A DNA stretch of 64,000 nucleotides from Neobacillus dielmonensis (GTDB taxonomy: Bacteria; Bacillota; Bacilli; Bacillales; Cytobacillaceae): contig NZ_HG942065.1 in the NCBI RefSeq assembly GCF_000612665.1, positions 1 to 64,000 of the forward strand, read 5' to 3'. Below the pieces are notes generated by a model that saw only the letters and a program-made list of their open reading frames with translations, was not told the DNA's origin and did no database searches. Positions 12,498 through 61,670 of this stretch are shown here, one piece after another. Numbering within the stretch: the stretch's first letter is position 1; each line of letters begins with the position of its first letter. A program made the translations under genes and the position numbers.

Positions 12498-12580
12498 CAT
12501 TCCTGATTTATTATATTGGGACCACAAGACAAGTCAAAGTTCGCTTCTTTTAGTTAAGAAAATAGTAGTTTTTATTTTTA

Positions 12581-12671
12581 TTTGCGATTTTTAACGGTTT
12601 ATTTGCGATTTTTGGACTTTTATTTGCGAATTTATGGGTCCTATTTGCGAATTCCCTAATTTTTTTTGCGA
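12581..12671. repeat. 21-bp periodic TTTGCGAA array, copy 1 (five units)
   Basis: TTTGCGA cores start at 12581, 12602, 12623, 12644 and 12665, exactly 21 bp apart. Each is preceded by TA or TT and followed by an A/T-rich spacer; the fuller unit is TATTTGCGAATTT plus 8 variable bases. Four units lie inside the 3' end of the NERD gene and one beyond its stop codon. The same unit and period occur at 18806-18897. A period of 21 bp puts every core on the same face of the DNA helix. Confidence 0.93.
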
Positions 12672-13664
12672 ATTCCAAAGTAATTGCCAATACCCACTTG
12701 GAAAGTTCACTGGAGTGTAGACTCTTTGCTTTTTAGATCCGGATCCAGCCAGATGTTCAGAACGCAATAATCTTCCAGCGACATGAATAGAATCTAATCT
12801 GGCAAACATGCGAAACTTCTGGTTGCTGATTTGTGGCTCAATAAGGAGAAAATAATCCAATAAAGCAAACATATGGGCATCATTTGAATATCTAAGGCAT
12901 GAAGAGCAATACCAGCTTTGCTTTTTCCTGACGAGCGGATGAAAAAAGCAAAACGGGCAAAACACTCCTGGTAGTAGTTCTTCAAGCTTTATTCCATACT
13001 TATTCAAAATATAGATTGTCGGTAAAGTGTTCATTTTAATAAGTTGTCTACTTAACTTTCGTAATTCCTTAGAGGTAAAGCAGATTTCATGGTGCATCCT
13101 TTCAAAAAACTTCAACTTACTTTCAAAGGCATCGGACTTGCACACGCGCGGCCTAACTTTATGTGAATTTTTCCCTGTTAGTACATAATTAGAGTATCCA
13201 TTACTTAAGACAACTAAATATTCAACTGGTACTGGTGGATAACCATGCTCCTTTAAAAAGGCCATTACATATTTTTGATGTCTCTCTGCTTGGGAAATTG
13301 GGTCTGGATAACCTTTTTCAATCCCATTATTCATTTGAATAAACTGTTCATTATCAGTATCGAATATTAATTTTCCCGCCATATTTTTTGCGTCAATGAT
13401 TAGTGCGTATTGAGGTGTCAAGAGGAGAGTGTCTATTTGGCAAATATATTCGCCATCGGGAAGGTTTAAATCGTGGAGAATGAGGAATTCCTTAGGAAGA
13501 GATCGGAGGTAATAATCCAATGACTTCTCCCCCATGTAACCGGCATAACGCCTTCCAAGTTCTTCTTTAATTTGTTGGTACTTCTCATGATTGAGGGGCA
13601 AACGCCTCAACAACGCCTCTAAAATCAGGATTCTATAAGGTATAGGTCTTTCTTTTAAAATCAA
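12591..13664 (-). CDS. NERD-domain protein with zinc ribbon
   Basis: 357 aa. The NERD (nuclease-related) domain spans about residues 40-160, with the restriction-endonuclease-like core: Asp78 in CQIDTLLL and Asp91-Ala92-Lys93 in YALIIDAKN. A zinc ribbon follows with CPFC at 236-239 and CSSC at 253-256. DNA cleavage is plausible but unproven for this family. The TTG start has AAGGAGTG upstream. The last 27 residues (331-357) are a 7-residue repeat (NSQxxxx) encoded by the 21-bp DNA array, so the natural C-terminus was probably replaced. It has no matching neighbour in the B. subtilis order and is likely an accessory gene. Confidence 0.82.
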   Translation of the reverse strand: MILKERPIPYRILILEALLRRLPLNHEKYQQIKEELGRRYAGYMGEKSLDYYLRSLPKEFLILHDLNLPDGEYICQIDTLLLTPQYALIIDAKNMAGKLIFDTDNEQFIQMNNGIEKGYPDPISQAERHQKYVMAFLKEHGYPPVPVEYLVVLSNGYSNYVLTGKNSHKVRPRVCKSDAFESKLKFFERMHHEICFTSKELRKLSRQLIKMNTLPTIYILNKYGIKLEELLPGVFCPFCFFHPLVRKKQSWYCSSCLRYSNDAHMFALLDYFLLIEPQISNQKFRMFARLDSIHVAGRLLRSEHLAGSGSKKQRVYTPVNFPSGYWQLLWNSQKKLGNSQIGPINSQIKVQKSQINR

Positions 13665-17317: not shown

Positions 17318-17596
17318 AAAAAAACCCCATCCCTGAAAAGGGACGAGGTTATCATTCGCGGTACCACCCTTGTAAACACATGCTATGTATATGTGTTCGC
17401 TTCATTCGGATAACGGCTGTGCCGGTACATCTTTACACGATAAAGCTTGCACTTTAACGTGGTCCCGATGCCAACTCTGGAGGTGAACTTCGCTTGCTTC
17501 ATCCATAAAAATGCTTTCAGTCAAGGCATTTTCTCCCTAATATGGCCGAATGACAAGTTACTTTTCTCCGTCATGGTCGATTCGTTATAACATTGT
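17318..17596 (-). ncRNA. T-box riboswitch of pheST
   Basis: On the minus strand the leader contains AGAAAAGTA in stem I, a candidate TTC (Phe) specifier at 17485-17487 followed by ACC, and the T-box GGGTGGTACCGCG (17357-17369). The terminator is AACCTCGTCCC ... GGGATGGGGTT followed by seven T (17318-17350). Uncharged tRNA-Phe would pair with TGGT of the T-box and favour the antiterminator. The whole gap between pheS and the rRNA methylase is explained by this leader and its promoter. Confidence 0.93.
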
Positions 17597-18478: not shown

Positions 18479-18511
18479 ATAGGGTAAAGAGCAAAAAAAG
18501 GAGTGTGCTTC

Positions 18512-18721
18512 ATGAACTTAAATTTGCGAAAAGCTGTTATTCATAATGTAGCCAATGATACGCAAGATCAATTAGAAGATACCATTGTGGATGCTATTCA
18601 GAGCGGGGAAGAAAAAATGCTTCCTGGCTTGGGCGTTTTGTTCGAAGTCATTTGGAACAATGCTTCTGAGAATGAGAAAAAAGACATGTTGAATACGCTT
18701 GAAAACGGGTTAAAACAATAA
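18512..18721 (+). CDS. sspI: Small acid-soluble spore protein I
   Basis: SspI (69 aa) is a minor spore-core protein made in the forespore. It is nearly identical in pattern to B. subtilis SspI, with [19 protein letters not shown] and [18 protein letters not shown]. The ATG at 18512 has AAAAAAGGAG upstream. It stands alone, with its own terminator. Confidence 0.96.
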
Positions 18722-18733
18722 AAATGAATTAAA

Positions 18734-18771
18734 AGCCGGCAAAAATTTTATTACGCGCCGGCTTTTTTTTA
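18734..18771 (+). terminator. Rho-independent terminator after sspI
   Basis: Stem AGCCGGC (18734-18740) / GCCGGCT (18757-18763) followed by eight T. Confidence 0.93.
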
Positions 18772-18803: not shown

Positions 18804-18899
18804 TATTTGCGAATTTTTGCTGTTTATTTGCGAAAATTGCTATTCTATTTGCGAATTTCCTTGCTTTATTTGCGAATTTCCCATTTTTATTTGCGAATC
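18804..18899. repeat. 21-bp periodic TTTGCGAA array, copy 2 (five units)
   Basis: TTTGCGAA cores start at 18806, 18827, 18848, 18869 and 18890, again exactly 21 bp apart, in the same plus-strand orientation as the array at 12581. The array lies between the convergent sspI and M42 peptidase genes, between their two terminators. Reading frames through it encode FANK or LRIS heptads; these are by-products of the repeat and not genes. Confidence 0.95.
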
Positions 18900-18916: not shown

Positions 18917-18946
18917 AAAGCCCCGGCAACAGTCTGCCGGGGTTCG
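18917..18946 (-). terminator. Rho-independent terminator after the M42 peptidase gene
   Basis: Minus-strand CCCCGGCA ... TGCCGGGG (arms 18921-18928 and 18935-18942) followed by seven T. Confidence 0.9.
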
Positions 18947-18952
18947 TTTCTT

Positions 18953-20038
18953 TTATTCAAAAATAATTTTATCAACTGTTTCGCGATCTAACCGTTTAAT
19001 CACTTCGACAATCAGCTTGACAGCATTCTCGTAATCATCACGGTGTAGGATTGCAGCATGTGAATGAATATAACGAGTGGCAATGGTGATGGCAAGTGCA
19101 GGTACCCCATTATGGGTTAAATGAATCGAACCGGCATCGGTACCACCGCCAGGGATTGATTCAAACTGATAAGGGATATTCAATTCGTCTGCTGTATCCG
19201 TAACAAAATCACGCAACCCTTTATGAGCCACCATTGAAGCATCATAAACAACGATTTGCGGGCCCTTGCCCATTTTACTCATCGCTTCTTTTTCGGTAAT
19301 TCCAGGAGTATCTCCGGCAATACCGACGTCAACCGCAAAGCCGATATCCGGCTCAATTTTATGCGTGGATGTTTTGGCACCGCGTAAGCCGACTTCCTCT
19401 TGTACGTTTCCGACACCGTATACTACGTTTGGATGGTCGACACCTTGCAGCTGCTTTAACACATCGATGGCGATGGCACAGCCGATGCGGTTATCCCAAG
19501 CTTTTGCCAGCAGCATCTTTTCATTGTTCATGACCGTAAATTCAAAGTATGGCACGACCATGTCTCCTGGACGTACTCCCCACTCTTGGGCTTCTTCGCG
19601 GCTGGACGCGCCGATATCAATAAACATGTCTTTGATATCGATTGGCTTCTTGCGTGCTTCAGCAGACAGGACGTGGGGCGGTTTGGAGCCGATAATACCC
19701 GTTACCTCTCCTTTTCTGGTTACAACTGTGACACGTTGGGCGAGCATAACCTGTCCCCACCAGCCACCGACCGTTTGAAAGCGCAGGAACCCTTTATCGT
19801 CGATTTGAGTAATCATAAAACCTACTTCGTCCATATGGCCTGCCACCATAATTTTAGGACCGTCTGCTTTTCCTACTTTTTTTGCGATTAAACTGCCAAG
19901 TCCATCGGTTGTGATTTCATCAGCATATGGAGTTATGTATTTTTTCATGACTTCGCGAACTTCGCGCTCGTTGCCAGGAATGCCTTTTGCATCCGTTAAA
20001 TCCTTCAGCATCGTTAATGTCTCATCAAGTTTAGCCAT
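18953..20038 (-). CDS. ysdC: M42 family metallo-aminopeptidase (YsdC-like)
   Basis: 361-aa dinuclear zinc aminopeptidase. Metal ligands are visible in AGHMDEVGF (His-Asp), AWDNRIG (bridging Asp), [10 protein letters not shown] (Glu-Glu), [11 protein letters not shown] (Asp) and the C-terminal IHSHAAILH (His). The ATG at 20038 is chosen for its AAGGGGG ribosome binding site and because the length then equals B. subtilis YsdC; an upstream ATG would add nine residues. Members form large dodecamers that trim peptides; the substrate here is unknown. Confidence 0.92.
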
Positions 20039-20119
20039 TTTCCGGCCCCCTTCAGGTAAAATCAAAACTACACCCTATATTATACAGAATCTTTCAAACA
20101 ACCAACAAATTTAAAACCA

Positions 20120-22089: not shown

Positions 22090-22223
22090 AGTTAGCCACC
22101 TCCAAGGTTTTATCAAGAATACTTTTGCCAGGGACAAGAATCACCAATTCGCCCCTTTAAAACCTGATTCATGATACGGTTTTAGAATAACAGAATCATA
22201 AGTTCCAGCAGAGAAGCCAATTA

Positions 22224-22376
22224 AAAAAGTGCGGATGAAACCACCCACACTTTACGAAACATAGTTTAAGTAACTATTTAAGTCCACGTAATACCTGTCA
22301 ACTGCGAAACGCGTCAAATCAGGTGAGAAGCGGGTGCTTCTTCTTTCCCAAAACTTAGTATTCAGTTTTAATACCT
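22224..22376 (-). ncRNA. infC/L20 autoregulatory leader
   Basis: The 5' leader of infC-rpmI-rplT. On the minus strand a stem AAAGTGTGGGT ... ATCCGCACTTT with six T (about 22224-22257) forms an intrinsic terminator, and upstream GAAGAAGCACCCGCTTCTC (about 22326-22344) forms a hairpin like the L20-binding site of B. subtilis. In that species L20 stabilises the terminator. The remaining 22090-22223 holds further leader sequence without a gene. Confidence 0.8.
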
Positions 22377-24477: not shown

Positions 24478-24798
24478 GGCTGTGTTAAAGGCTATTGTTG
24501 ATTTTAACCAGTTGATTGGAGCGGAAGGCGCGAAGACTCCTCGAAAATGCTTTCGCATTTTCTTCGTGCGTGGGCCTATTCAAGGATGTAATTCAGAGTC
24601 CTGCGGGAGTACGGGGCTGGGGAGACCCCGCAGGCAATTTCATCGCCGAGGAGGCTCCCCGGCACGCCCGCGGAAAGCGAAAGGAGTACGGGGCTGGGGA
24701 GACCCCGCAGGCAATTTCATCGCCGAGGAGGCTCCCCGGCACGCCCGCGGAAAGCGAAACGCCTGGAGCGGAAATCAACAACCAAGTTTAACACAACC
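24478..24798 (-). mobile_element. MITE-like GC-rich hairpin element in the thrS leader
   Basis: A 321-bp non-coding element. Its ends are imperfect inverted repeats, GGCTGTGTTAAAG (24478-24490) and GTTTAACACAACC (24786-24798), matching at 11 of 13 positions. It is flanked by identical 8-bp AATAAAAT (24470-24477 and 24799-24806), the expected target duplication. Inside are a second inverted pair around GGAGCGGAA and a tandem duplication of 77 bp (24606-24682 and 24683-24759). It has no credible gene. Relatives are at 30885 and 44343. Confidence 0.87.
24606..24759. repeat. 77-bp tandem duplication inside the thrS-leader element
   Basis: Two adjacent, near-identical 77-bp copies, each beginning GGAGTACGGGGCTGGGGAG and ending GCGGAAAGCGAAA. 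Each copy is itself a GC-rich hairpin (GGGGAGACCCC; GGAGGCTCCCC). The duplication is specific to this copy of the element within the window. Confidence 0.92.
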
Positions 24799-24804
24799 AA
24801 TAAA

Positions 24805-25134
24805 ATAAAAAACCCGTCCCTAGAAGAAAGGGACGAGTTTGAATTAACACGTGGTTCCACCCAATTTTTCATTTTGTACACAATGGATCCAAAATGACTT
24901 TAGGTCAGATAACGGCTGCTGCCGTCAACAATTACTAACTTCCCAAAGGTAGTGTTCACTGCTGAAGTTTAAAGGCGGTAAGTATCTTTTTCGTGATAGG
25001 AAGCTTGCAGCCATGACCTCCCTCTCTATGATCCGTAAAAAAATACTGTTGTCCTTCTCATAACTTGTTATAATCATTTTTTTGTCATGCATTAGCATCC
25101 TGTTTTGCATACTGCATTTGCATTGTTGACTATG
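24805..25134 (-). ncRNA. T-box riboswitch of thrS
   Basis: On the minus strand the T-box GGGTGGAACCACG (24850-24862) is followed by the terminator AACTCGTCCC ... GGGACGGGTT with six T (24805-24840). In stem I the 3' strand reads GTGAACACTACC, so the specifier is ACT or ACC, both threonine codons. The leader is complete, but its terminator is followed by the inserted element and not directly by the thrS ribosome binding site. Confidence 0.92.
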
Positions 25135-61380: not shown

Positions 61381-61488
61381 ACAGGAAATTATTCACATTG
61401 AATTATTGAGACAGATGCGATATTATAATTCTACAAGCTGCATTGTTCGTAACCATAATAAAGTTTTAACCTTTAGACTGTAATAGGG

Positions 61489-61670
61489 AGTTTTAATTGA
61501 AGCAGGAATGACAGGCCTCTGTCTATACGACATGGAGGACACGCAGGAGAGCTTCTGCGAACACCCACTTTGAGGAGTGGTGGTTTAAAACTTTCTTATA
61601 TTAAATTACGGCAATTGCGGCTGTACATAAAGAAAACACCAGCACCCTAGTAAGGGGCTGGTGTTTTTTT
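61489..61670 (+). ncRNA. Candidate structured non-coding RNA
   Basis: An 8-bp closing stem AGTTTTAA (61489-61496) / TTAAAACT (61585-61592) encloses three hairpins: CCTCTGTC/GACA-GAGG (61516-61538), CGCAG/CTGCG (61542-61559) and CACC(C)ACT/AGTGGTG (61562-61582). A strong terminator follows at 61635-61670. No reading frame with a ribosome binding site fits. A TATAAT-like box is near 61424-61431. I cannot match it to a known riboswitch or to 6S RNA. It could be an independent sRNA or the 3' region of the peptidase transcript. Confidence 0.55.
61635..61670 (+). terminator. Rho-independent terminator after the peptidase/RNA region
   Basis: ACACCAGC ... GCTGGTGT (61636-61643 and 61657-61664) followed by seven T. 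Confidence 0.92.

Follow-up and report, generated by a model that had tools for sequence, protein, structure and literature searches.

Dispersed 21-bp-phased arrays in Neobacillus as candidate cognate sites of a NERD-domain, nuclease-like protein

The array of short direct repeats at positions 18804 to 18898 of the window (the whole 64,000-nucleotide stretch of Neobacillus dielmonensis DNA that was analysed) belongs to a group of dispersed arrays that are associated with genes for NERD-domain, nuclease-like proteins. The arrays have a regular anatomy and fall into classes by two variable core bases (NN), these bases covary with a predicted helix of the neighboring protein, and one chromosomal site is found in different states in different genomes. 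From the covariation, it is very likely that the NERD protein binds the arrays. On balance, we favor a system of a chromosomal nuclease-like protein and its cognate arrays, which would resemble the RAYT/REP 'REPtron' in its working and be made of unrelated parts.

The array is a solo five-unit array of class TT on the + strand, with TATTTGCGAA cores at 18804, 18825, 18846, 18867, and 18888 (step 21). A direct pattern search found TTTGCGAA on the + strand at 18806, 18827, 18848, 18869, and 18890, in steps of exactly 21 bp, which confirmed the five evenly spaced cores described in an earlier note on this DNA. The Pfam and gene annotation step placed sspI at 18503-18721 (+) and an M42 peptidase gene at 18953-20065 (-), and the two genes converge on the array. 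The terminator-like stem and T run of sspI (18735-18770, +) were recognized by eye; the stem is GCCGGC, and the loop is too long for the terminator scan. The scan reported a terminator-like stem on the peptidase side (18919-18944, no strand assigned) and a small one directly 5' of the array.

Array 1 (12579-12672, +), also of class TT, is the 3' array of the NERD gene. It likewise has five units at step 21, and the identical geometry claimed for the two window arrays therefore holds. Its first two cores read TTTGCGAT, and the A that opens TATTTGCG is absent from its last core. The NERD ORF runs into array 1, which is read as its tail; the translation of 12591-12674 gives NSQI-type heptapeptides, and homologues stop before the array. 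Elsewhere in the window, a perfect 77-bp tandem duplication was seen at 24606-24759, and Rfam matched two T-box leaders (17336-17583 and 24826-25070), an L20 leader (22217-22351), and a 6S RNA (61432-61627).

The 8-mer alone was mildly enriched, with 10 matches in the window against a shuffle mean of 5.35, and 10 was reached in 2 of 100 shuffles. The paired pattern, two cores at the array spacing, gave 13 matches in the 4.56-Mb genome versus none for the reversed pattern, and de novo array scoring at two sites in relatives brought 0 of 336 mononucleotide shuffles to the threshold. The array is not a chance occurrence because the spacing, unlike the 8-mer alone, is absent from the controls.

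Five arrays were found in the genome, all of class TT, together with one NERD-A gene of the TT type. Two are in the window, and one each lies at leuB/leuC, at hisD/hisB, and between moaD and a moeB- or thiF-like gene, these names having been read from translated gene ends. The last three sit between co-directional genes. The reported placement between convergent genes and terminators thus applies to both window arrays, which have terminator-like stems, but not to the leu, his, and moa arrays. The exact TATTTGCGAAT occurs 20 times in the genome, 16 of them inside arrays, and its reversed control five times. Solitary exact cores are therefore at the control level, and the array, rather than the single site, seems to be the unit. 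No spacers are common to the solo arrays of this genome, and recent copying was therefore not seen.

In relatives, the core is TATNNGCGAA and the period stays near 21 bp, with NN fairly uniform within and different between arrays. The classes seen were TT, TA, TG, CA, CG, CC, CT, GA, and others, and some arrays are inverted. Several NN classes coexist in one genome, which rules out one genome-wide core drifting per species. For example, NN uniformity in G041 was 0.95 inside arrays versus 0.42 between them, and the values for spacers were 0.50 versus 0.36. Five units were the mode (42 of the 78 arrays fetched from nine same-genus genomes, G026 excluded). The array caller took steps of 19-23 bp only; 339 of 356 steps within the genus were 21 bp, and 208 of 220 in other genera were 20 bp. 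The gradual drift from 21 bp that would have meant no selection on phase was hence not seen inside the genus, and other genera use 20 bp.

Orthologous sites were compared between related genomes, a comparison that the earlier note had proposed for strains, and both array presence and unit number varied. An array was present at the sspI-peptidase site in 22 of 56 genomes, and a NERD gene was found there in none of the 56. In G015, the closest relative, the leu and moa arrays have orthologues for which 3 and 4 units were called instead of 5, and two recognizable cores remain at its his site. The five arrays of the genome and those at orthologous sites in relatives support the earlier description of a dispersed, functional element. 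Functionless tandem repeats that slip and drift would fit the differing unit numbers of orthologous arrays and the long arrays with repeated spacers in other genera. However, most core positions of class TT hold 1.6-1.9 bits versus about 0.1 bits in mid-spacer, and the cores covary with a protein. Core identity between orthologous arrays was 726/767 versus 409/646 for spacers, a difference that arises partly by construction because units were called by their cores. We consider this explanation highly improbable.

Several other features were seen in the array loci. At the sspI-peptidase site, G007, G018, G021, G034, and G049 (L359, L336, L361, L366, and L344) carry inverted ATCCGC(C/A)AGT-type arrays of 9-18 units, mostly at 20 bp. 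Higher-order repeats of about 102-103 bp occur in Ureibacillus acetophenoni (L079, L137, L169, and L186), where a 102-bp repeat is built from five units, and in G026 (L280). A palindrome, TGTAA(W1-3)TTACA, was found 7 times in the array loci searched, always 16-59 bp 5' of the array (L266, L285, L419, L428, L435, L438, and L445), and a similar leader comes after it in G036 and G041. The array strand relative to the replichores was mixed by eye in the G036 and G041 listings. No description of these arrays was found in the titles and abstract starts listed from the open-access literature.

When the neighbors of arrays at unrelated loci were compared, NERD-domain proteins emerged as a recurring gene family. 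The window member lies at 12591-13664 (-), a 357-aa ORF whose homologous part is about 12675-13664 and which ends inside array 1. As in other NERD-domain proteins (PF08378), the protein carries a NERD domain (residues 41-154; 13203-13544, -), matched at 75.9 bits against a cut-off of 22.1 (E 4.4e-21) and harboring a D..(D/E)xK motif. NERD was the sole Pfam match at E<=0.001, and there was no HuH/Y1 transposase match. The motif, which is that of PD-(D/E)XK nucleases, is kept in 51 of 53 NERD-A proteins (47 by pattern and 4 more by eye) and in 23 of 23 NERD-B proteins. A fold search gave weak matches, with R2 endonuclease-bearing protein, Bax1, McrBC, and Can2 on top, which we take to be PD-(D/E)XK enzymes; the best E was 2.9e-3, and none was <=0.001.

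Three C-terminal helices were predicted, at residues 264-274, 281-288, and 293-301. In the best of five structure models, they form part of a winged helix (residues 264-317; 12714-12875, -), whose third helix is the predicted recognition helix (residues 293-301; 12762-12788, -). The models were built on an alignment of three sequences; the best had a mean pLDDT of 72 (81-91 over residues 261-310), and the other four had 47-49. Defense searches gave no PADLOC match, and the NCBIfam match to MADS6 (29.6 bits) was far below its cut-off of 460. Relatives of the protein were absent from both the plasmid and the phage collections at E 1e-5. Among the matches listed, NERD relatives were present in 58 of 61 genomes of the genus, and the titles and abstract starts listed from the open-access literature nowhere tied NERD proteins to repeat arrays.

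For the association between genes and arrays, we used 79 non-redundant NERD loci (two from another genus), divided into NERD-A (at least 45% identity, n=56) and the more distant NERD-B (n=23); a partial NERD-A match in G013 (54%) was not among the loci counted. At least one array of 20-21 bp period was found within 450 bp of every one of the 56 NERD-A genes; 47 genes have one upstream, 50 have one downstream, and 41 have both. The window gene has no array on its 5' side. Additionally, 92 of the 95 NERD-A flanking arrays with readable orientation run opposite to the gene. Two of the 23 NERD-B loci have a downstream array, and 16 have an upstream one. By comparison, among ordinary genes of the pheT-sspI region, an array was present in 2 of 269 flanks on the upstream side and in none of 228 on the downstream side (2/497 in total). 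In other genera, 27 of 30 NERD loci had an array; these loci were obtained from 42 listed matches in 14 genomes of nine genera of the family, most of which were picked for having arrays. The upstream arrays of NERD-B (L505-L524) have mostly other cores, such as GATTGGCTCATTTTT, ATTCCGCCAAC, TTACTCGTC, or TATCAGGAAAAA, and the stretch between an upstream array and the NERD gene looks conserved and promoter-like by eye.

Some arrays are orphans. G036, assembled as one contig, contains 15 GA/GG arrays, yet its one NERD-A gene is of the TG type, and the draft genome G022 contains 10 TT arrays, whereas a TT-type NERD-A gene was not found. At the genome level, TT arrays occur in all 10 genomes that encode a TT-type helix and in 12 that do not (p 7e-6), a test that is partly circular because the gene's own flanking arrays were counted.

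Of the 56 NERD-A genes, 53 had sufficient length; genes lacking a classed 3' array or an alignable end were dropped, which left 46 for the covariation set. For the 3' array, the highest mutual information with the first N was that of residue 293 (1.37 of 1.49 bits), whereas 200 shuffles reached at most 0.77. With the second N it was that of residue 297 (1.15 of 1.92 bits), against shuffles of at most 0.99. In the predicted winged helix, both residues fall where the third helix begins. Columns 301, 303, 306, and 313 of the same domain were also above the shuffles, which ignore relatedness. In the 5' array, residues 293 and 310 led jointly for the first N at a modest 0.86 (shuffles 0.78), and no column passed for the second N, the best reaching 0.88 where shuffles went up to 0.93.

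The relation can be written as a simple rule. Isoleucine or valine at 293 goes with T as the first N (20/21), R with G (8/8), and P, H, D, E, or S with C (17/17), whereas at 297, K goes with A or G as the second N (25/25) and G with T (13/15). The residue-293 rule, which was formed on the same data, correctly assigns 45 of 46 genes their first N in the 3' array; leave-genome-out prediction was correct for 42 of 46, versus 20 of 46 for the majority class. As a partial control for relatedness, we took close pairs with a different first N, and all 15 disjoint pairs differ at 293. The G036/G035 pair is 97% identical over residues 1-274, yet differs at 293 and at the first N. In other genera, the residue-293 rule was not upheld throughout.

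An RNA element, either hairpins or an RNA-protein site, in place of a DNA site was also considered. Folding of the window arrays was slightly better than that of shuffled sequences (z -0.4 to -2.0), the adjacent spacers of the present genome gave z -2.4 on one strand, and a few adjacent spacers are complementary. However, the 11 other genomes gave no z below -1.8, and the covarying domain is a predicted winged helix, which makes an RNA element very hard to credit. Rfam had no match over the arrays. Hairpins with the core as loop, hinted at by complementary neighbors in two genomes, were rejected, as in 11 of 12 genomes the complementarity of adjacent spacers did not exceed that of reshuffled ones.

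The phhB-pheT site was surveyed in 59 genomes, with rnhC or a fixed 1.9-kb stretch used where phhB was unmatched (for example, G036). Of these, 19 genomes had the NERD gene, 12 had an array without that gene, and 28 had neither, so that an array or a NERD gene was present in 31 of 59. These states are to be read with three details: the NERD loci of the present genome, G052, and G054 were scored array-less but have 3' arrays; among the solo sites, the array in G034 stands next to an inverted NERD-B gene, and that in G012 is of the same type and orientation as the one in G034; and among the empty sites, G017 holds an inverted NERD-B gene. LTR-like pairs were also found, as 13 of 31 same-class 5'/3' array pairs exceeded the 95th percentile of pairs from different elements, and the best pairs are nearly identical, spacers included. 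Among the 40 genes flanked by two classed arrays, the classes differed in 10. When solo sites were compared with full elements, the right outer flanks matched in 8 of 8 but contain the host pheT terminator, and the left flanks were clearly above shuffles in 3 of 8; solo arrays as collapsed full elements are compatible with these results, not proven. Loss of the NERD gene was not shown to erode arrays, with exact cores in 9 of 11 units in G015, which is without NERD-A, and 20 of 25 in the present genome. The suggestion of a self-propagating element is plausible because the arrays flank a nuclease-like gene and one site has gene-bearing, solo, and empty forms.

Homing endonuclease genes are nuclease genes that lie inside their own recognition sequence. 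The NERD genes are similar in that a nuclease-like gene lies in its own putative recognition sequence and one site has forms with and without the gene, but the arrays here occur at many loci. An insertion that interrupts the site was not found in NERD-A; the 41 genes with arrays on both sides often have five units in each. As both flanking arrays are whole, the gene does not destroy its site, unlike homing endonuclease genes.

The setting of the arrays was counted with one array per intergenic region (104 of 119). Convergent regions numbered 30 of 104 versus 16 of 128 in the background, divergent regions were under-represented (10/104 versus 37/128), and 64 of 104 were co-directional, the leu, his, and moa genes among them. 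In 75 of the 104 regions, the gene on the 3' side of the array runs toward it, and the NERD gene likewise runs toward its 3' array. The earlier view of a chromosome-organising or transcription-insulating site draws on the phased sites, the convergent genes and terminator-like stems of both window arrays, and the excess of convergent regions. As a general role it was not supported, since most of the regions are co-directional and three of the five arrays of the genome lie between co-directional genes, so that an insulator between convergent genes is not general. Many genomes, moreover, have no arrays at these sites, and several private classes coexist in one genome. We regard this role as improbable.

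The main rival is that NERD is a sequence-specific regulator with a nuclease-derived domain, and that the arrays are operators or elongation roadblocks. The array before the NERD gene would then serve self-control, and the others, at gene 3' ends or within operons, would damp read-through, as stoperators do. The 5' arrays of NERD-A lie near the gene start (median 104 bp), only upstream arrays occur in 16 of 23 NERD-B loci, and the orientation bias points the same way, also among co-directional regions (45 versus 19, p 0.0016, orthologues uncorrected). Mycobacteriophage stoperators, as outlined in PMC6550527, likewise face one way with respect to transcription, and their motifs are specific to the phage. 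The regulator reading leaves unexplained the downstream arrays of 50 of 56 NERD-A genes, the LTR-like pairs, and the gene, solo, and empty states; we hold it to be a serious but rather unlikely alternative.

The putative nuclease-plus-array system was also compared with other known systems. Plasmid iterons are direct repeats, about 20-22 bp long and about five to a set, that adjoin the gene for the protein binding them. The arrays share this repeat length, number, and place, but they have no Rep protein and occupy many chromosomal loci; iterons were ruled out by the lack of any match in the plasmid collection and by the protein being NERD, not Rep. According to PMC6550527, stoperators are asymmetric sites across the phage genome with one prevailing orientation and a motif that changes with the repressor. 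The arrays resemble them as asymmetric, dispersed sites with a prevailing orientation and a motif varying with the protein, and differ in being chromosomal, in sets of about five, and paired with a nuclease-like protein without a phage match. A phage origin was rejected, as triple TT units and pairs of GA or CA units occurred in no viral contig and no phage record matched the protein; the TT pairs in 8 viral contigs inspected by eye were put down to chance. The TAACTGA direct repeats of Beggiatoaceae (abstract of PMC4679880) are likewise short, stand in sets of 2-6 in many intergenic regions, and have a proposed binder. They differ in motif, in lying mostly just upstream of start codons with a proposed translational role, and in that the abstract reports no cognate gene beside the repeats.

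The closest likeness is to REPtrons, outlined in PMC8266576 and PMC8049555 as a RAYT/TnpA-REP gene with REP/REPIN repeats. In both, a chromosomal gene lies beside its own repeats, further copies are dispersed between genes, and each protein has its own repeat class; the NERD arrays are chromosomal, and the NERD protein had no match in the plasmid collection. However, RAYTs are HuH transposases, and a NERD domain is found here; the REP repeats are palindromes with GTAG, whereas the cores are direct repeats in phased arrays. Several NERD genes per genome also distinguish the present system.

We propose that the tandem units of each array serve as cognate binding sites of the NERD-domain, nuclease-like protein. 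Covariation and geometry suggest one NERD molecule, or dimer, per 21 bp. As 21 bp corresponds to two helical turns, the sites would lie on one face of the DNA. The C-terminal winged helix would bind the core TATNNGCGAA, with residues 293 and 297 reading the two N bases, and about five sites may be the working unit. As an array lies just upstream of many NERD genes, the protein probably controls itself. Gene and arrays together may form a small chromosomal element in which the NERD domain would nick or cut at arrays, and recombination between arrays would gain or lose the gene and rarely seed new arrays. Solo arrays such as 18804-18898 would be the dispersed non-coding members of this element. 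More tentatively, it is possible, though we would not presume it, that this is a new self-propagating system: a winged-helix nuclease that cuts or nicks five-unit arrays and drives the exchange of a gene-plus-array cassette and solo arrays, with lineages splitting when 293/297 and NN change together.

If this is true, a single genome could accommodate several such 'languages', each private to one protein and its arrays. The dispersed repeat, of which the literature searches turned up no description, gains a candidate reader protein and a directly testable function. The matched pairs TT, TA, TC, TG, CA, CG, CT, and GA/GG form a natural series for studying how a DNA-binding protein may shift its site and keep its partner, and the relation of two residues to two bases might help to program a compact, nuclease-like DNA-binding protein. 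The system would be a second, independently built case beside RAYT/REP, and would bear on why chromosomes keep nuclease-plus-repeat populations.
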